Source of the DNA: Planctomycetia bacterium
GTDB taxonomy: Bacteria > Planctomycetota > Planctomycetia > Pirellulales > PNKZ01
Reading direction: 5' to 3'
DNA length: 64,000 nucleotides
Assembly: GCA_021413845.1 (NCBI GenBank)
Contig: JAIOPP010000006.1
Coordinates: forward strand, 124,001 to 188,000
Made by a program: the position numbers and the translations under genes
Shown here: in pieces, positions 2,424 to 36,112 of the stretch
Layout of the letters: each line of letters starts with the position of its first letter
Numbering within the stretch: position 1 is the first letter of the stretch
Notes under the pieces: generated by a model
Seen by the model: the letters and a program-made list of their open reading frames with translations, nothing else
Told to the model about the DNA's origin: nothing
Database searches by the model: none

Positions 2424-4076
2424 GTGGCTAATACCTTTGCGAATCATCTGCGACTGTTCAGCGACTTGGCTCATGGCGAAGGTCGCCGCGAGCCGGAACT
2501 CGCCGACCCGGTCGATCGCCTTTGTCGCGCGTTTACCGCAGCGACGCGTTGGAAGCTGGAGTGCCTCAGCGGCACCGAGCCCGCGCCGGGTCGATCGTCG
2601 CACATCGCTTGGACGGCACCGGTAACGCCGACGGGCAAGGCTTCGCGACGTTGGCAATTGAGCGGTGTTGCGAATGCGGGGGCATCCGCAACGTCGCCGG
2701 TGGCCGAAGAGGAAGCGCGCAACTTAGCTTCGGCCTTGGCCGATATCGTCGCCGAGTTGATGCGCACGCAACGGGCCTTGAACGAGCGCGAAGCGGAATT
2801 GGCCGCGGGCGTTCCCTTGATTCCGCATCCCAAGGCCGAGCGGCATCTGGCCGAGCGGTTGGAAGCGGTGTTGCAATCGGCGGCGCAAGCGGTCGGTTGC
2901 CGAGCGGCGGGAATCTATTTGCTCGATGCAGGCACCAGCGAGTTGAAAGTCCGTGCGCAGTGGAACCTGCCCGCCGAGCGCTATCTCGACGCGCCGCGAC
3001 CGCTGCGCGGCGCGATGGCCGATCTCGAAGCGCTCGCCGGGCATGCCGTTGCGCTAGAAGATGCGACGTTGTTCGATCATTGGAACCTGCCGGAGCCGAA
3101 CTTTGAGGCGGCTATCTGCGTTCCGATCGCATCGCCGATGGAACTACTCGGCACGCTCTGGGTCTTCGCCGACGAGAAGCGCGCGTTCACCGATCAAGAA
3201 GTGAACCTCGTCGAGATCTGCGCAGGGCGCGTCGCGGCCGATCTCGAGCGCGAGATCTTGATGACCGAGACGCACGACACCGCGCGGCTCAAGCGCCACT
3301 GGGATGATGCGGCCGAGCGCCGCAAGACGCGCGTGCCGCAAGTAGCGCCGCTCGTCGATGGTTGGGAGATTGCCGGTTGGAGCAGCCCGGCCGAAGAATC
3401 GCTCGGTGAGTTCCACGATTGGCTCGTCACACGCGACGGGGCGCTGGCCGCTGCGGTCGGCCGCGTGGAAGACTCCCACTTCGCGGCGGCGCTCTCCGTG
3501 GAAGCGCTCCGGAGTGCATGGCGCGCACACGCGCACCATGAGCCCGACATGGGCCGGCTATTGTCTCTAGTGAACGACGATCTCTGGAGCGGCTCCGCAG
3601 AAACGGTTCCTGCGCACTTGATCGGCCTGCATCTCATCGACGATGGGCGGATCACCTGGGCTTCGGCCGGTCGCACCAGCGGACTGCTGCTGCAACTACA
3701 AGCCGGCGATCGCCGCACGGCAGCCGACACGGCAATCACTTCGGGCGGAATTCTGCTGCCCGGCAAGCCGGCGATTACCGATCTCACTGCCTTCGGCGAT
3801 GCGGCCCGATACTTCGGCGATACGTTGTCGCTGGGGATCGAGTCGGATGTGCGGTATGAAGCCTGTGCGCGGAGGTTGCTGCCGGGCGACATCCTCGTGC
3901 TGACGAACAGCGCTGCACAAGCGGAGGCGCTGACGACCGCCGCGCGAGCGGGAAAACTGCCGGGCGTCGGACGACGGAGTTGCCGCGAATGGCTGGAAGC
4001 GTTCCGGTTGCTGCTGCACTCGACGGATGAACTGCTGCGACCGGCGGCGCTCGTGGTCGTGCGGAGAACACGGTAG
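2424..4076 (+). CDS. GAF domain plus SpoIIE/PP2C-like phosphatase domain, catalytic site degenerate
   Basis: About 550 residues. After an N-terminal part of ~130 residues with a short helical segment comes a GAF-like sensor domain (about 141-276), then a C-terminal region from about 313 whose order matches SpoIIE-type PP2C phosphatases. The metal-binding motifs are altered. Where the family has GDFYD the protein has GEFHD. The usual GDVxGxGxxAAL is replaced by GRVEDSHFAAAL near 346. The late TDG is replaced by TNS near 493. It may therefore be a sensor or scaffold rather than an active serine phosphatase; that is inference. The start is uncertain: the frame stays open to a TTG at 2286, but recognisable sequence begins just after the GTG at 2424. 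No partner kinase or anti-sigma antagonist gene is adjacent. Confidence 0.7.
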   Translation: MANTFANHLRLFSDLAHGEGRREPELADPVDRLCRAFTAATRWKLECLSGTEPAPGRSSHIAWTAPVTPTGKASRRWQLSGVANAGASATSPVAEEEARNLASALADIVAELMRTQRALNEREAELAAGVPLIPHPKAERHLAERLEAVLQSAAQAVGCRAAGIYLLDAGTSELKVRAQWNLPAERYLDAPRPLRGAMADLEALAGHAVALEDATLFDHWNLPEPNFEAAICVPIASPMELLGTLWVFADEKRAFTDQEVNLVEICAGRVAADLEREILMTETHDTARLKRHWDDAAERRKTRVPQVAPLVDGWEIAGWSSPAEESLGEFHDWLVTRDGALAAAVGRVEDSHFAAALSVEALRSAWRAHAHHEPDMGRLLSLVNDDLWSGSAETVPAHLIGLHLIDDGRITWASAGRTSGLLLQLQAGDRRTAADTAITSGGILLPGKPAITDLTAFGDAARYFGDTLSLGIESDVRYEACARRLLPGDILVLTNSAAQAEALTTAARAGKLPGVGRRSCREWLEAFRLLLHSTDELLRPAALVVVRRTR

Positions 4077-4186
4077 TCGATTTGACCGACTGACTCAGCC
4101 CGCTCAGAGAAGAGTCGCGAATGCGGGTGTTCCGACGCCTTGACGCGAAAAATCAATCATTTAGACTAGGTAGTCTTCGACAATTT

Positions 4187-4270
4187 GCGGTGGTGGCGAA
4201 ATTGGCAGACGCACCAGCTTGAGGGGCTGGCGGTAGCAATACCGTGGAGGTTCAAGTCCTCTCCACCGCA
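4187..4270 (+). tRNA. tRNA-Leu (anticodon GAG)
   Basis: An 84-base cloverleaf. The acceptor stem GCGGTGG (4187-4193) pairs with CCACCGC (4263-4269), with discriminator A at 4270. The anticodon stem CCAGC/GCTGG encloses a seven-base loop with GAG at 4221-4223. A long variable arm (4231-4245) marks a class II tRNA, as expected for leucine. The T-arm is GGAGG-TTCAAGT-CCTCT. The CCA end is not encoded. A strong terminator follows 15 bases later. Confidence 0.97.
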
Positions 4271-4329: not shown

Positions 4330-4359
4330 CCCGGCGTATTCACGCCGGGCTATTGAACG
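4330..4359. repeat. Short palindrome with CTATTGAACG flank, REP-like
   Basis: CCCGGCG and CGCCGGG (4330-4336 and 4343-4349) enclose TATTCA and are followed by CTATTGAACG. The same plan, a GC stem around ATTCA followed by CTATCGAACG, recurs at 22481-22510. Two copies with different stems but a shared loop and flank suggest a dispersed extragenic palindrome family. Only two copies are in the window, so the family call is tentative. Confidence 0.45.
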
Positions 4360-4394
4360 GAGTGGATCGAGCGAATGAATCGCTTGAACCGATT

Positions 4395-5150
4395 CTACCC
4401 GTATAGCCGGTTCACTTCGTCGTACTTGATCTTTCTGGCGCGCACGGTTCCGTCGCTGAGTTTTTCGCCGAGCGGGTCGAGATACAGCCGGCCGGTCGAG
4501 AGGCTCGACGTCGGGTTCACGTCCATGACGTGGATGTTGAAGATGTAGCCGACGTCGTCGGTCGCCGTGAACCAGTGGATATTGTCTTTGTAGTCGGACA
4601 CGCTTGAATACTCGCCCGGCGCGAAGGGGCGATCGATCGTCGGGCGGATCAGATAATGATCCGGTTCGTCTTTCAACCGGTCGTAATGTCGGCCCTGGAA
4701 CTTCCCTTTCACGATCAAGAACGCCGTCGCCATGTTGTTGTGGCCGTGCGGCACGACGCTGCGCCCTTTCTTCATCGCAAACACTTGGCGACCGAAAACG
4801 AGCTTCGTCGGCACGCCGGCGATCTCCGCAAATTGCGGTCGCAAGCTGCGGGCACCATGCTCCGGAAAGTCGACGTTCGACGAGAGCTTGTCGAAATCGA
4901 TCAAGCGCAACAAGTCGGGCAGATCGACTTTCGCGTACAGCGCTTCGACTTGCTTTTGCCACTCGAGCTGCTTGAGCTTCTGATCTTTGACGTCTTGCCC
5001 AAGCTGGTTGAGCTGCGCAAGCCAAGCGGTCGTGATCGGTTTCACTTCGGCGGCGAAGGCATCTCGTGCGAAGAGGGTGTCGAACAGTGCGAACGTCATC
5101 ACGGAGCCGAGAGCTTCGCGCGTGAAAGCACGACGATCGAGAACTGCCAT
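4395..5150 (-). CDS. Exported cupin-like protein of unknown function
   Basis: A 251-residue protein from the ATG at 5150. The frame runs on upstream, but that extension overlaps the neighbouring HMA gene and looks non-coding. The N-terminus (DRRAFTREALG then a hydrophobic stretch ending in DAFA) resembles a Tat-type signal peptide with twin arginines. The middle has HGHNNMATAF (near 135) in a region of alternating beta-strand pattern, as in single-domain cupins, where such histidines bind metal. Substrate and reaction cannot be assigned. It lies downstream of the HMA gene on the same strand, separated by a GC-rich hairpin, and converges on the tRNA terminator. Confidence 0.7.
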   Translation of the reverse strand: MAVLDRRAFTREALGSVMTFALFDTLFARDAFAAEVKPITTAWLAQLNQLGQDVKDQKLKQLEWQKQVEALYAKVDLPDLLRLIDFDKLSSNVDFPEHGARSLRPQFAEIAGVPTKLVFGRQVFAMKKGRSVVPHGHNNMATAFLIVKGKFQGRHYDRLKDEPDHYLIRPTIDRPFAPGEYSSVSDYKDNIHWFTATDDVGYIFNIHVMDVNPTSSLSTGRLYLDPLGEKLSDGTVRARKIKYDEVNRLYG

Positions 5151-6119: not shown

Positions 6120-7997
6120 ATGAGCTCCGTCATCATGCCTGAAACCACTTCGCCCGCCTCGACCTCGGCTGCCGACGCACCGAAAGCCCGGCGTTCCGAT
6201 ATCCGCAACTTGGCGATCATCGCCCACGTCGATCATGGCAAGACGACTCTCGTCGATTGCTTGCTCAAAGAAAGCGGCGAGTTCCGGGCCAGCGAACTTA
6301 CCGAAACCTGCATCCTCGACTCGAACGACCTCGAGAAGGAGCGCGGCATCACGATCTTGGCGAAGAACGTGGCGATGCACTACAAGGGGATCAAGATCAA
6401 CCTCATCGATACCCCGGGACACGCGGACTTCGGCGGCGAAGTCGAGCGCGTGCTCCGGCTCGCCGATGGAGCGCTCGTGCTCGTCGATGCCGCAGAAGGG
6501 CCGATGCCGCAAACGCGGTTCGTGTTGTCGAAGGCGATCGAGTTCGGCTTGAAGCCGATCGTCGTCATCAACAAGATCGACCGCGGCGATGCCCGCTGCA
6601 ACGAAGTGCTGAACGAAGTCTTCGAGTTGTTCCTCGAGCTCGGTGCCGACGACGAGTTGGCCGACTTCCCCTACATCTTCGCTTGCGGTCGCGACGGCTA
6701 CGCCACGACCGATTGGAACGTCCCCACGGATTCGATCCGTCCGTTGTTGGACCTCGTCGTCGAACACATTCCGGGCCCGGAAATTGAGGCGGAAGCGCCG
6801 TTGCAAATGCTCGTTACCACGCTCGACTGGTCGGAGTTCGTCGGCCGGATCGCGATCGGCCGGATCTATGCCGGCACGGTGAAGAAGGGGCAACGAGTCA
6901 ACTTGATGCAGAAAGACGACAGGAACTCGGCGCTGAAAGTTCAAGCGCTCCACGTGTTCGAGAAGCTGAGCCGCGTCGAAGTCGACGAGGCGGGTGCCGG
7001 AGATATCGTAGCGATCGTCGGGCTGGAACAGGTCGAAATCGGCGACACGATCTCCGACATCGATCAACCCCGGCCGCTGCCGCGCGTGACGGTCGATCTT
7101 CCGACCCTCGAGATGACGTTCAGCGTCAACACCTCGCCGTTCTGCGGCAAGTCCGGCAAGTTCCTCACGACGCGCCACTTGCGCGATCGGTTGATGAAGG
7201 AGTTGCAACGCAACGTCGCGCTCAAAGTTCGCCAAATACCGAACTCCGATACTTACGCCGTCGCCGGCCGCGGATTGCTGCACTTGTCGGTGCTCATCGA
7301 GACGATGCGCCGCGAAGGGTACGAAATGTCGATCGGCAAGCCGCAAGTCATCACGCAAATCATCAACGGCGTCGAGCACGAGCCGTTCGAGACGCTCGTC
7401 GTCGAAGTGCCGCCGGAAAAGCTCGGCAAGGTCATGGAGCTCGTCGGCGCGCGGCGCGGCAAGATGCTCGAAATGACGCATCGGGGCAACTACTCGTTCG
7501 TGCAGTTCTCGATTCCCGCTCGCGGCCTGATCGGCCTCCGAACGCGCGTGCTCAACGCCACGCAAGGGGAAGGGATCATGCATCACCGCTTCGAAGACTA
7601 TAAGCCGCTCGAAGGAGACGTGCCGGCCCGCGCCAACGGCGTGCTCATCTCGATGGTCACGGGCAAGACCGTCGCGTTCGGGCTCGACGGCCTGCAAGAC
7701 CGGGCCGACTTGTTCGTCGGGCCGGGGGCGGAAGTGTATGAAGGGATGATCGTCGGCGAGAATGCCCGCGACAACGACATGACCGTGAATCCTTGCCGCG
7801 AAAAGAAGCTCACGAACATGCGTGCTTCGGGAACCGACGGCATCACGATTCTCAAGCCGCCGCGCCAGATCACGCTGGAAACCGCGTTGGAATACATCGA
7901 AGACGACGAGCTCGTCGAAGTCACGCCCGACGCAGTCCGCCTCCGCAAGCAACTGCTCACGGAAAACGACCGCAAGCGCGCCGGCCGTAAGGCATAA
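6120..7997 (+). CDS. typA: Ribosome-associated translational GTPase TypA/BipA
   Basis: A 625-residue protein of full family length, aligning from end to end with known BipA. After a ~29-residue N-terminal extension, the G1 loop AHVDHGKTT lies at 35-43, followed by the switch II motif DTPGHADFGGE and NKID (G4). The elongation-factor domain 2, the SVNTSPFCGK segment, the SGRG-like AGRGLLHLSV of domain III and the C-terminal VYEGMIVGENARDND and KKLTNMRASGTD motifs specific to BipA are all present. It binds the ribosome in a GTP-dependent way and assists 50S assembly and stress or low-temperature growth. It is monocistronic and ends at a strong shared terminator. Confidence 0.97.
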   Translation: MSSVIMPETTSPASTSAADAPKARRSDIRNLAIIAHVDHGKTTLVDCLLKESGEFRASELTETCILDSNDLEKERGITILAKNVAMHYKGIKINLIDTPGHADFGGEVERVLRLADGALVLVDAAEGPMPQTRFVLSKAIEFGLKPIVVINKIDRGDARCNEVLNEVFELFLELGADDELADFPYIFACGRDGYATTDWNVPTDSIRPLLDLVVEHIPGPEIEAEAPLQMLVTTLDWSEFVGRIAIGRIYAGTVKKGQRVNLMQKDDRNSALKVQALHVFEKLSRVEVDEAGAGDIVAIVGLEQVEIGDTISDIDQPRPLPRVTVDLPTLEMTFSVNTSPFCGKSGKFLTTRHLRDRLMKELQRNVALKVRQIPNSDTYAVAGRGLLHLSVLIETMRREGYEMSIGKPQVITQIINGVEHEPFETLVVEVPPEKLGKVMELVGARRGKMLEMTHRGNYSFVQFSIPARGLIGLRTRVLNATQGEGIMHHRFEDYKPLEGDVPARANGVLISMVTGKTVAFGLDGLQDRADLFVGPGAEVYEGMIVGENARDNDMTVNPCREKKLTNMRASGTDGITILKPPRQITLETALEYIEDDELVEVTPDAVRLRKQLLTENDRKRAGRKA

Positions 7998-30883: not shown

Positions 30884-32266
30884 CTACGAGGCTTTTTTCG
30901 CCGCCGGATCGTGCCAGCCGGCGTCGGGCGTCAAGCGCGAGGCAGCGGCCGGCCCCCAAGTCTCGGGGTCGTACTCGGCGAGCGGAGTCGCGTCGTTCAG
31001 AATCGGATCGACGATGCGCCAGGCCGCCTCGACCGAGTCTTCGCGCGCGAACAACGAGGCATCGCCGTTTGCCGCGTCGCCGAGCAAGCGCTCGTACGGC
31101 TCCATTTCGTCGGGGCGTTGATGATGGGCGATCAACTCGACCCCTTCGCCTTCCATGCGCTCGCCCGGCTTCTTCACGCGCGTGCCGTAAGCCAACACCA
31201 TCTCGGGGCTCAAACGAAATCGATAATAACAGTCGGGTGCTTCGCACGTATCGTCGAGCACCGGCCTCTGCGGACGTTTGAACCGGACCAACACCTCGGT
31301 CGCCGTGACCGGCAATCGCTTGCCGACGCGCACGAAAAAGGGAACTCCCTGCCAACGTTCGTTGTCGATCATAAATCGGAGGATCGCGAAGGTCTCGACC
31401 GTCGACGTCGGGCTGACGTCTTTTTCGTCGCGATAGCCGCGATACTGCCCTCGTACGACATCGGCCGGCGTGAGCGTGCGAACCGCTTCGAGCAGTCGGC
31501 CGCGCACGTCGCGTCGCGCTTCATGATCGGTGCCGCACGGGCATTCCATCGCCAAACATGCGACCACTTGCAGCATGTGATTCTGCACGACGTCGCGAAT
31601 CGCGCCGGCTTCTTCGTAGAACTTCCCTCGTCCGACGACGCCGAAGTTCTCGGCCATCGTGATCTGCACGCTTTCGATATGCTCCTTGTTCCAACCGGCT
31701 TCGACCTGCGGGTTGGCGAAGCGGAAGTAGATCAAATTCTGCACCGGTTCCTTCCCGAGAAAGTGGTCGATGCGAAAGATCGACTCTTCGGGAAAGTAGC
31801 GATGCAGCGTCTCGTTCAATTGCTTGGCCGAAGCGAGATCGCGTCCGAACGGCTTTTCGACCACGACGCGCGCGTTCTTCACGCAGTCGGCCTGCGCGAG
31901 CCCTTCGGCGACCGTGCCGAACAGGCTCGGCGGGATCGCGAGGTAATAAAGGGGGCGCTGCGCGCCGCCGAGCGCCGCGTGCAATTGCGCGAAGGTCGCC
32001 GGGTCGGCATAGTCGCCGTCGATGTAGTTCATCCGCGCGCAGAGCTTGGCATACGTCGCTTCGTCGAACTTCCCTTTCTTCTCTAGGCTATCCTTGGCAC
32101 GGGCCTTAAGCTGATCGAGGTTCCAGCCCGACTTCGCAACGCCGATGATCGTCATCTCGAGCCGGCCGTGACGAACGAGCGCCGCGAGCGCCGGGAAGAT
32201 TTGCTTATAAGCTAGGTCGCCCGTCGCGCCGAAGAAGACGAGCGCATCGGAAGGCAAAGTTTCCAT
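30884..32266 (-). CDS. zwf: Glucose-6-phosphate 1-dehydrogenase
   Basis: A 460-residue cytoplasmic enzyme at near full family length. The coenzyme loop reads GATGDL (13-18), EKPFGRD lies at 137-143 and the active-site RIDHFLGKE at 165-173 with its catalytic histidine. The C-terminal half follows the family through GVPFFVRVGKRL. It oxidises glucose-6-phosphate to 6-phosphoglucono-lactone with NAD(P)+, the entry to the oxidative pentose phosphate pathway. Its ATG overlaps the gnd stop (TGATG), so the two are translationally coupled. The lactonase gene is not in the window. Confidence 0.95.
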   Translation of the reverse strand: METLPSDALVFFGATGDLAYKQIFPALAALVRHGRLEMTIIGVAKSGWNLDQLKARAKDSLEKKGKFDEATYAKLCARMNYIDGDYADPATFAQLHAALGGAQRPLYYLAIPPSLFGTVAEGLAQADCVKNARVVVEKPFGRDLASAKQLNETLHRYFPEESIFRIDHFLGKEPVQNLIYFRFANPQVEAGWNKEHIESVQITMAENFGVVGRGKFYEEAGAIRDVVQNHMLQVVACLAMECPCGTDHEARRDVRGRLLEAVRTLTPADVVRGQYRGYRDEKDVSPTSTVETFAILRFMIDNERWQGVPFFVRVGKRLPVTATEVLVRFKRPQRPVLDDTCEAPDCYYRFRLSPEMVLAYGTRVKKPGERMEGEGVELIAHHQRPDEMEPYERLLGDAANGDASLFAREDSVEAAWRIVDPILNDATPLAEYDPETWGPAAASRLTPDAGWHDPAAKKAS

Positions 32267-32730
32267 CAGGCACCCCCCTTCGCCGCGGCCGCTTCGACGT
32301 GACCGCCGAACTGAAAACGCATCGCCGAAAGAAGTTTATCGGCGAAGTCGGCCTCGCCGCGCGAGCTAGAGCGTTCGTACACCGCGGCGCTGAGGACCGG
32401 CACCGGAACCGATTCATCGATCGCAGCCGTGAGCGTCCAGCGTCCTTCCCCGGAATCCGAGACGCGACCGGCGAACTTCTCTAAGCCCGGACTATCGTGC
32501 AAGGCGGCGGCGGTCAGATCGAGCAGCCACGAGCCGATGACGCTTCCGCGTCGCCACACTTCGGCGATGTCGGCGAGGTTGAGATCGTAGGCGTAATGCT
32601 CGGGATTTCGCAGCGGGGTCGTCTCGGCATCGGCGTGGAGGTCGTAGGCCACGCACCGATGCCCCGCCTTGAGTAAGCGCCGGACCATGTTCGTGCCCAT
32701 CCGGCCGAGGCCGATCATCCCGAGTTCCAT
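32266..32730 (-). CDS. gnd: 6-phosphogluconate dehydrogenase, internally deleted remnant
   Basis: A 154-residue product from the ATG at 32730 with an AAGGAAT ribosome site. Residues 1-32 are the start of the NAD(P)-binding fold (MIGLGRMG, then GHRCVAYD). Residues 33-154 are the C-terminal catalytic part of the GndA-like family ([52 protein letters not shown]). The ~180 residues that normally lie between, including the rest of the coenzyme domain and the substrate-binding lysine/histidine region, are absent, yet the frame is kept. The product cannot be a working dehydrogenase. The junction is at about 32628-32640. Overlap with zwf shows the original operon. Confidence 0.9.
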
Positions 32731-34198: not shown

Positions 34199-35536
34199 AT
34201 GCACTTCGACGACGACGCTTGCTACCGAGCTCTTACCGCGCGCGATACCCGTTTCGACGGGTTGTTTTTCGTCGGCGTGAAGTCGACCGGCATTTACTGT
34301 CGCCCGGTTTGCACGGCGAAAACTCCCGGCCGCAATCGCTGTCGGTTTTTCGCCGTTGCCGCGCTGGCCGAGCAAGCCGGGTTTCGACCTTGTTTGCGCT
34401 GCCGTCCCGAGCTTGCGCCGGGTCACGCGCCGGTCGATAGCGCTCGCACGATCGCGCGAGCCGCGGCGGCTCGCATCGAAGCCGGCGCGCTCAACGACCG
34501 TGGCAGCCTCGAAGAACTCGCCTCCGGCTTGGGGCTCAGCTCGCGTCAGTTGCGCCGCTCGGTGCGCAAAGAGTTCGGCGTGTCTCCCGTCGAGCTGGCG
34601 CAAACCAATCGCCTGCTCCTTGCCAAGCGTTTGATCGCCGAAACTCAATTGCCGATGGTGCAAGTCGCCTTCGCCGCCGGATTCGAAAGCGTGCGACGCT
34701 TTAATGCACTGTTTCGCAGCCACTATCGGCTCACTCCGAGCACGCTGCGGCACTCGACGTCGCAGGGGAACGCCGCCGATTGCTTACGCTTGACGCTCGC
34801 CTATCGTCCGCCGCTGGATTGGGCCGCGATGCTCGGCTTTTTGTCGGCGCTTGCTCCCGCGCTGCCGTCGCTGCTCGTTCGCCTGCGGAACTTGTTCGAT
34901 CTCGATGCCCGGCCGGATATCATCGCGGGGCAGTTGGCGCTCGATCCTCTTCTTGCACGGCTCGTCGAGCTTCGGCCCGGCTTGCGCGTGCCGGGGGCGT
35001 TCGATTCGTTCGAGCTCGGCATTCGAGCCATCCTCGGGCAGCAGGTATCCGTTCGCGGTGCATCGACGCTTGCCGGCCGCTTCGCTGAGCGGTTCGGAGA
35101 AGCGATCGAAACGCCGTGGGCTTGCTTGAATCGCGTCACGCCTACTGCCGCTGTGCTCTCGGCCGTTCGGAGCGGCACGCTCGCCGGGCTGGGTTTGCCG
35201 AGTGCTCGTGCCGAGAGCCTGCGAACTTTTGCGAGTGCGGTTTCGCGTGGCGAAATCGATCTCGATCCCGGCCCGGACCCGACTATGATCGTCGGCAAAC
35301 TCAGGGAGCTTCCCGGCATCGGGCCTTGGACGGCAGAGTATATCGCCATGCGCGCCTTGCGATGGCCCGACGCCTTTCCGACCGGCGACCTGGGACTCAT
35401 GAAAGCCTTGGGATCAAGCTCGGCGAAAGCAATGGAAAAAGCGGCCGAGCCGTGGCGCCCTTGGCGGGCCTATGCGGCGATGCATTTATGGGAAAGCCTC
35501 AAGACACTTCGAAAACGAACGTCACGAAAGGAGTAA
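34199..35536 (+). CDS. alkA: Ada-type regulator fused to AlkA 3-methyladenine DNA glycosylase, AlkA part shortened
   Basis: A 445-residue protein. The N-terminus is the Ada methylphosphotriester domain with zinc cysteines in CRPVC (34, 38) and CLRC (65, 68); the first of these takes up methyl groups. An AraC-type HTH (about 100-190) follows. The AlkA part begins with TLAYRPPLDWAAMLGFL and ends with the helix-hairpin-helix LPGIGPWTAEYIAMRAL (371-387) and catalytic Asp398. Against E. coli AlkA, roughly 45 residues of the N-terminal beta domain are missing between GFL (213-215) and SALAPALP, in frame. The methyl sensor, HTH and catalytic domain are intact. It forms an operon with ogt, seven bases downstream. 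Confidence 0.9.
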   Translation: MHFDDDACYRALTARDTRFDGLFFVGVKSTGIYCRPVCTAKTPGRNRCRFFAVAALAEQAGFRPCLRCRPELAPGHAPVDSARTIARAAAARIEAGALNDRGSLEELASGLGLSSRQLRRSVRKEFGVSPVELAQTNRLLLAKRLIAETQLPMVQVAFAAGFESVRRFNALFRSHYRLTPSTLRHSTSQGNAADCLRLTLAYRPPLDWAAMLGFLSALAPALPSLLVRLRNLFDLDARPDIIAGQLALDPLLARLVELRPGLRVPGAFDSFELGIRAILGQQVSVRGASTLAGRFAERFGEAIETPWACLNRVTPTAAVLSAVRSGTLAGLGLPSARAESLRTFASAVSRGEIDLDPGPDPTMIVGKLRELPGIGPWTAEYIAMRALRWPDAFPTGDLGLMKALGSSSAKAMEKAAEPWRPWRAYAAMHLWESLKTLRKRTSRKE

Positions 35537-35542
35537 CGAGCG

Positions 35543-36112
35543 ATGACCGAGACGACTTGCTATAGCTATGTCGATTCTCCCTTAGGGCAACTCTTCGTTC
35601 AAGGAGACGGCAAGTTCGTGACCGGTCTCTACTTGCCGCAACACAAAGGTTGGAAAGGGCCCGATGCCTCGTGGCGACGATCGGATGAATCGTTCGCCGT
35701 GGTACGCGAACAACTCGCCCAATACTTCGCAGGGGTGCGACGAACCTTCGACGTGCCGCTCAAGCTCATCGGCACGCCGTTTCAGCGGCATGTCTGGAAG
35801 GAATTGGCGCGAATTCCCTACGGCACGACGATCTCTTACGGCGGACTCGCTCAGCGGGTCGGCAACTCGAACGCTTCGCGCGCCGTGGGAAACGCCAACG
35901 GCCGCAACCCGATCTCGATCCTCGTGCCGTGTCATCGAGTGGTCGGCTCCAGCGGAAAACTCACGGGCTATGCCGGAGGCGTCGACAAGAAGCAATGGCT
36001 GCTCGCCTGGGAGCGAGGCACGACGACGACTGCCGCCGGTTATCTATTCGACGTCGATAGCGCGTGCCAAGCCGATCGAGCAAAGCACTCGAAGTCTTCA
36101 GCGCCTGGTTAA
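35543..36112 (+). CDS. ogt: Methylated-DNA--protein-cysteine methyltransferase
   Basis: A 189-residue protein. The active-site VPCHRVVG gives the acceptor Cys130; the HTH-like segment TPFQRHVWKELARIPYGTTISYGGLA and the RAVGNANGRNP arginine-finger region are standard. It transfers O6-methyl groups from guanine to itself in a suicide reaction. It starts seven bases after the Ada-AlkA gene, so the two form an adaptive-response operon, probably switched on by methylated Ada. The last ~30 residues are extra and low in conservation. Confidence 0.96.
   Translation: MTETTCYSYVDSPLGQLFVQGDGKFVTGLYLPQHKGWKGPDASWRRSDESFAVVREQLAQYFAGVRRTFDVPLKLIGTPFQRHVWKELARIPYGTTISYGGLAQRVGNSNASRAVGNANGRNPISILVPCHRVVGSSGKLTGYAGGVDKKQWLLAWERGTTTTAAGYLFDVDSACQADRAKHSKSSAPG

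Follow-up and report, generated by a model that had tools for sequence, protein, structure and literature searches.

Loss of an internal segment in frame from a redundant gene, leaving a pseudogene, is a known kind of gene decay. For 6-phosphogluconate dehydrogenase of the GndA type, the nearest described case is that of the Methylophilaceae, in which the portion of PMC4109929 available to us describes a pgl-gndA-zwf cluster, reports gndA as missing in three strains and reports GndB in each new genome. The pseudogenes treated in the consulted part of PMC6558740 are nearly all of hypothetical proteins and are not gnd. A narrow literature search of titles and the starts of abstracts returned no report of gndA erosion in planctomycetes, a result that does not show the pattern to be unpublished.

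Here we describe a shortened gndA directly before an intact glucose-6-phosphate dehydrogenase gene in a planctomycete genome (G000). The window, meaning the whole stretch of DNA analysed, has 64,000 nucleotides. Our preferred reading, to which we give a probability of about 0.8, is that the accessory gndA of a gndA-zwf2 operon has suffered a genuine deletion, that its product is inactive, that the loss is tolerated and that the remnant is either a relic or kept for the sake of zwf2.

The gndA stub and its junction with zwf2

The stub lies on the reverse strand at 32266..32730, where a frame of 154 codons runs from an ATG at 32730 to a stop at 32266; the list of open reading frames starts the same frame further upstream, at a TTG, and so gives it 187 aa. 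Sequence, profile scores and alignment identify it as a gene for the short form of 6-phosphogluconate dehydrogenase from which an internal segment has been deleted in frame. The kept N-terminal part (32626..32730, reverse strand), delimited by alignment with 14 full-length orthologs, corresponds to GndA residues 1-35, includes GLGRMG and matches PF03446 at profile positions 2-37 of 161, which is not a complete NAD-binding domain. The kept C-terminal part (32266..32631, reverse strand) comprises 121 residues from DAETTP on, plus the stop; it is 70-84% identical to 11 full-length orthologs and matches PF00393 at profile positions 169-275 of 290.

Against 14 full-length relatives, which range from 325 to 343 aa (336-343 in 13 of them), the alignment shows the stub to lack one large internal block. 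Residue 34 of the stub (D) aligns with residue 222 of L015, an ortholog from the same genus, and 188 codons (564 nt) are absent; the stub can be described as 35 N-terminal plus 119 further C-terminal residues, with two residues (DA) that fit both sides. The absent block includes GGNS at 92 as well as K188 and N192 of HFVKMVHNG (L015 numbering), which we take to be catalytic or substrate residues of the GndA family. The stub therefore has neither the catalytic Lys/Asn in HFVKMVHNGIEY nor the GGNS motif by which a short-form GndA is recognised, and it scored below the cut-offs of both TIGR00872 (165.6 bits; cut-off 297.2) and NF007161 (184.8 bits; cut-off 271). Its kept parts are orthologous to GndA and the gene is placed before zwf as L015 is; at the level of sequence, the resemblance to GndA is not one of chance. 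Because most of the dinucleotide fold, GGNS and the catalytic lysine and asparagine are gone, the predicted product is very probably without 6-phosphogluconate dehydrogenase function.

An earlier note on this DNA had described a gnd reduced in frame to 154 residues, and the frame, the partial PF03446 and PF00393 matches, the sub-cut-off scores and the alignment all bear this out. It placed the catalytic lysine and the bulk of the NADP fold in the lost part, in agreement with the alignment with L015 and with the partial PF03446 match. It was also right that the N-terminal start is kept, but the length of that part is 33-35 residues and not 32, since DA fits both sides.

Downstream, zwf2 (30884..32266, reverse strand) encodes a glucose-6-phosphate dehydrogenase of 460 aa that is intact, as had been claimed. 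It scored 448.2 bits against TIGR00871 (cut-off 400.6; profile positions 3-478 of 486), as a full-length family member does, and it covers positions 1-460 of 461, with no stops, of a Zwf2 profile that was built with the window zwf2 included. The stop of the stub overlaps the start of zwf2 in TGATG (32264..32268, reverse strand), the stop/start overlap by which a translationally coupled pair is recognised. Within the last gndA codons there is a Shine-Dalgarno-like run, AAGGGGGG (32273..32280, reverse strand), which may serve zwf2.

Other features near the pair include a promoter-like match at 32859-32830 (9/12) and, on the forward strand at 34199-36112 of the window, a gene with Ada metal-binding, AraC-type HTH and AlkA N-terminal domains. 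An O6-methylguanine-DNA methyltransferase gene follows the latter after 6 nt, and the two look like an ordinary alkylation-repair pair.

Origin of the deletion and its metabolic setting

The deletion junction is placed at 32625..32631 (reverse strand), where GATGCCG was possibly common to both sides (4-7 nt, as judged from the flank codons of relatives). Among 94 relatives, in which one locus is counted twice because L092 and L015 are the same gene (of G003), the start of the C-terminal part reads DAE(T/A)(T/A)P in 82. The N side was tallied in the 65 of 94 loci readable by motif, the other 29 standing outside the tally; the position of A35 is A in 46 of these 65 and the preceding residue is D in 12. 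The DLHADA of the stub fits the N side, and one eroded relative (G293) has exactly DLHADAV there. L015 shares only GCCG at the junction. Joining at a shared GATGCCG would account well for the residues at the junction, as would joining at GCCG if the ancestor, which can only be reconstructed, was L015-like. If DA was shared, the repeat stood in the same frame on both sides, and the deletion is therefore in frame. Repeats as short as this do not collapse assemblies and are typical of slippage deletions.

The same junction bears on whether the stub is an artefact, that is, whether gndA is full-length in the organism while the contig either lost 564 bases or represents a minority strain. The genome is a draft of 167 contigs and the kept parts of the stub are as conserved as in full-length genes, both of which would fit such an error. 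However, the flanks probably share only ~4-7 nt, which is too little for k-mer collapse, the deletion lies inside a 257-kb contig, and other partial gndA deletions occur in other genomes. The L015 protein was used to search the assembly for the absent block (E up to 10); apart from the window locus this returned only relatives of 26-36% identity, and the block was not found on any other contig. Taken together, we consider an artefact improbable.

The earlier note had concluded that the oxidative pentose phosphate route is broken here unless another gnd exists, and had proposed a search of the genome for one. That search found a second, complete long-form gnd at C160:24524-25924 (TIGR00873, 722.1 bits; cut-off 426.7), with a second zwf ~1 kb from it at C160:22137-23567. 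The exception thus applies: the stub deletion alone leaves the route unbroken, the metabolic reading is corrected accordingly for this genome, and the broken pathway was rejected as an account of the locus. Long-form gnd is present in 18 of the 24 genomes examined, and in 7 of 7 genomes with a broken gndA (G000, G170, G293, G266, G258, G190 and G308). Two further genomes of the same genus, G001 and G002, have no short GndA and no Zwf2; each has a zwf, and we take their matches with frames of 555-578 aa to be long-form gnd.

We thus favour a genuine deletion, which would have removed an internal segment of an accessory short-form gndA, probably via slippage or joining at a very short repeat. 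The cell would tolerate the loss because it has, elsewhere in the genome, a complete long-form gnd accompanied by a zwf of its own. The stub would then be a recent relic, or it may have been kept since it is in the 3' end of gndA that zwf2 has its probable ribosome-binding site and its overlapping start codon.

The same-genus genome G003 has a full-length gndA of 343 aa (L015) with zwf2 downstream. Only gnd and zwf2, of ten window frames, match in the 16-kb region of G003, and the pair therefore stands in different surroundings in the two genomes. In the kept part of the stub, 2 of 69 otherwise invariant columns are changed, compared with 0-3 among 13 full-length genes and 7 for L014. Relative to L015, dN is 0.13 and dS 1.18 (near saturation), and the numbers of novel sites are 8 for the stub and 7 for L015. 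Clear decay or relaxed constraint in the kept part was not demonstrated by the invariant columns or by the novel sites compared with L015, the only hint of relaxation being an F-to-S change at an invariant column. Since the kept part is as conserved as full-length genes, either the deletion would be young compared with the divergence from G003, or the remnant would be constrained, and the sequence data fit both.

An open frame and conserved kept residues, together with the low pairwise dN/dS relative to L015 (0.13/1.18), might also be expected of a 154-aa protein with a new role, for instance one that regulates Zwf2 or the other Gnd, or associates with either. Most of the divergence between the stub and L015 may, however, predate the deletion. 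The same form is present in no other genome of the samples of 396 (order) and 397 (class), and stubs elsewhere keep different pieces, one of them with an out-of-frame middle. We regard a new protein role as highly improbable.

Eroded gndA genes and the start of zwf2 across the class

To place the deletion among its relatives, gndA was surveyed at three levels. Within the order, short GndA is accessory: among 396 sampled genomes, 24 have it (E 1e-12), and of these 24 only the window copy has a frame under 340 aa. In the genome_contigs collection, the best 80 of 537 confirmed relatives comprise 79 full-length frames and 1 cut by a contig end, and the window gene alone is shortened. At class level, the C-terminal profile has matches in 99 of 397 sampled genomes (E 1e-20); large erosions were seen in G000, G170, G293 and G266, and a frameshift near the C-terminus in G258. 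Short frames cut by contig ends (G195, G203), genes with runs of N (G291, G371) and pieces on two contigs, judged from match rows alone (G120), were not counted as eroded.

Outside G000, an intact zwf2 follows a broken gndA in G170 and G293 (large erosions), G258 (frameshift), and G190 and G308 (tiny remnants), whereas in G266 gndA and zwf2 are both broken. G258 has a further open gndA on contig C218. At its frameshifted copy (L162, G258:C382:14000-24000, positions 3117-4220), the shifted frame is open and ends on ATGA at the zwf2 start.

Starting from zwf2, we found 52 Zwf2 copies in 49 of the 397 class genomes (E 1e-150); in ten calibration genomes the other zwf genes were far lower-scoring on the Zwf2 profile. 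The survey of upstream partners counted only gndA on the zwf2 strand within 3.5 kb. Directly upstream of the 52 copies there is a full-length gndA in 23, a large eroded gndA in 3 (G000, G170 and G293), a frameshifted gndA in 1 (G258), an N-interrupted gndA in 1 (G371, which lay outside the upstream survey and was seen separately) and a C-terminal remnant of 22 or 28 residues in 2 (G190 and G308). The remaining 22 have no same-strand gndA within the stretch examined, which was under 1.3 kb at L168, L171, L174 and L186; zwf2 starts were placed at all loci but L181 and L186. In G040 and G048, gndA is a few kb away on the other strand, and a gndA match elsewhere in the genome was found in G283, G201, G384, G230, G291, G160, G277, G024, G199, G308, G117 and G302. 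Because 14 genomes of the groups with a remnant or with no upstream gndA have gndA elsewhere, a missing upstream gndA is not always a loss.

Stop/start overlap is seen in 3 of the 23 full-length gndA-zwf2 pairs (G003, G210 and G212), the other gaps being 10-427 nt. It also occurs with a full-length gndA in 14 of the 44 genome_contigs loci with a zwf match, among the matches listed (including L092, which is the G003 gene), and overlap alone therefore does not go with erosion. A midpoint-rooted Zwf2 tree of 49 of the 52 loci, with L181, L186 and L189 left out, joins G170 and G293 as sisters (0.99) and places G000 with the full-length G003 (0.82). From this placement, at least two of the erosions are independent.

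These loci raise the possibility, which we add tentatively to the preferred reading, that the stub has been kept by selection as a translated leader: ribosomes ending at TGATG would re-initiate on zwf2 in a putative coupling, and deletions inside gndA would be most likely to persist where they leave a frame open as far as the zwf2 start. A TGATG/ATGA overlap is found in G000, G003, G210, G212, G170, G293 and G266, and all four large erosions end on it in an open ATG frame, of 154 codons in G000, 95 in G170, 168 in G293 and 71 in G266. For three intact overlap-type genes, 33-34% of random internal deletions keep the frame into zwf2. The overlap type is present in 4 of 4 large eroded genes compared with 3 of 23 full-length ones (Fisher p 0.002; 0.008 without G266; 0.033 with G258, G190 and G308 added as eroded non-overlap cases), but these tests are post hoc, rest on few cases and related sequences, and ignore descent. 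Because G170 and G293 are sisters on the Zwf2 tree, the p values overstate the association.

In G293 the middle of the frame is out of register and GLGRMG reads GLERMG. The G266 frame begins MQIGMMG and by eye is a GndA start joined to the last ~62 residues (L189, G266:C1:5076000-5090000, positions 6865-7080 in zwf2 orientation, the reverse of the locus); there, gndA is 71 codons and zwf2 itself is broken after ~50 codons, which argues against maintenance for the sake of zwf2. In G160, a 44-codon frame ends on TGATG, overlapping the zwf2 start (L169, G160:C495:3000-13000, positions 4765-4899, zwf2 strand), and its ends are in register with the start and end of gndA: nt 10-29 (90%, E 0.006) and the last 11 nt (100%, E 0.025) match the G212 gene. 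In G201, a ribose 5-phosphate isomerase B gene (PF02502) stands directly before zwf2 with a TGATG overlap (L165, G201:C1:2493000-2503000, positions 4357-4863, zwf2 strand). Its product ends EKAAAHKGGA on TGATG, resembling the EKAAEKGGA of G212, but the two align over 11 nt (E 0.098), and an unrelated match in that comparison is at least as good.

Further observations weigh against a leader. The 22 of 52 zwf2 loci described above do without gndA directly upstream, and G283, G384, G230 and G024 have TGATG but no ORF or one of 10-25 codons. In G190 and G308, no open frame that reaches 20 codons contains the remnant. Furthermore, at three full-length non-overlap loci (L145, L149 and L153), the zwf2 ATGA is also reached by incidental frames, which span 241-333 codons (31-73 when counted from an ATG), and open frames into zwf2 therefore also arise by chance. 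The broader proposal is that, in overlap-type planctomycete operons, a redundant gndA has been cut down, on more than one occasion, to a short open leader ending on the zwf2 start, with translation conserved and not the protein. We consider it doubtful; its scope would perhaps take in differing stubs in four genomes, the 44-codon micro-frame in a fifth and the rpiB replacement in a sixth.

Comparison with known systems

The window locus and its few relatives may form a natural series in which a redundant operon gene is worn away piecewise, with the part that touches the neighbour going last. If the leader reading were true, a regulatory role would go unseen wherever such a stub is annotated as a truncated enzyme, and from the series one could learn in what way translational coupling restricts the loss of operon genes. 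Overall, the locus would be accounted for by a redundant enzyme gene in the midst of being lost, in the ordinary way; the pattern in which the end next to zwf2 persists as an open leader is suggestive but unproven.

Compared with short-form GndA (TIGR00872 and NF007161), the stub is homologous over both kept parts and has the same place directly before zwf, but it is without 188 codons, comprising coenzyme fold and catalytic residues, and falls short of both cut-offs. As in an in-frame deleted pseudogene of a redundant gene, its catalytic core is gone and the function is present elsewhere in the genome; unlike such a pseudogene, its frame is open and has a start-stop overlap with an intact downstream gene. 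As far as the consulted portion of PMC4109929 describes the Methylophilaceae, the likeness is that gndA is lost from a gndA-zwf cluster and zwf is retained. There the gene is reported absent, whereas here an in-frame remnant is left, the end of which overlaps zwf.
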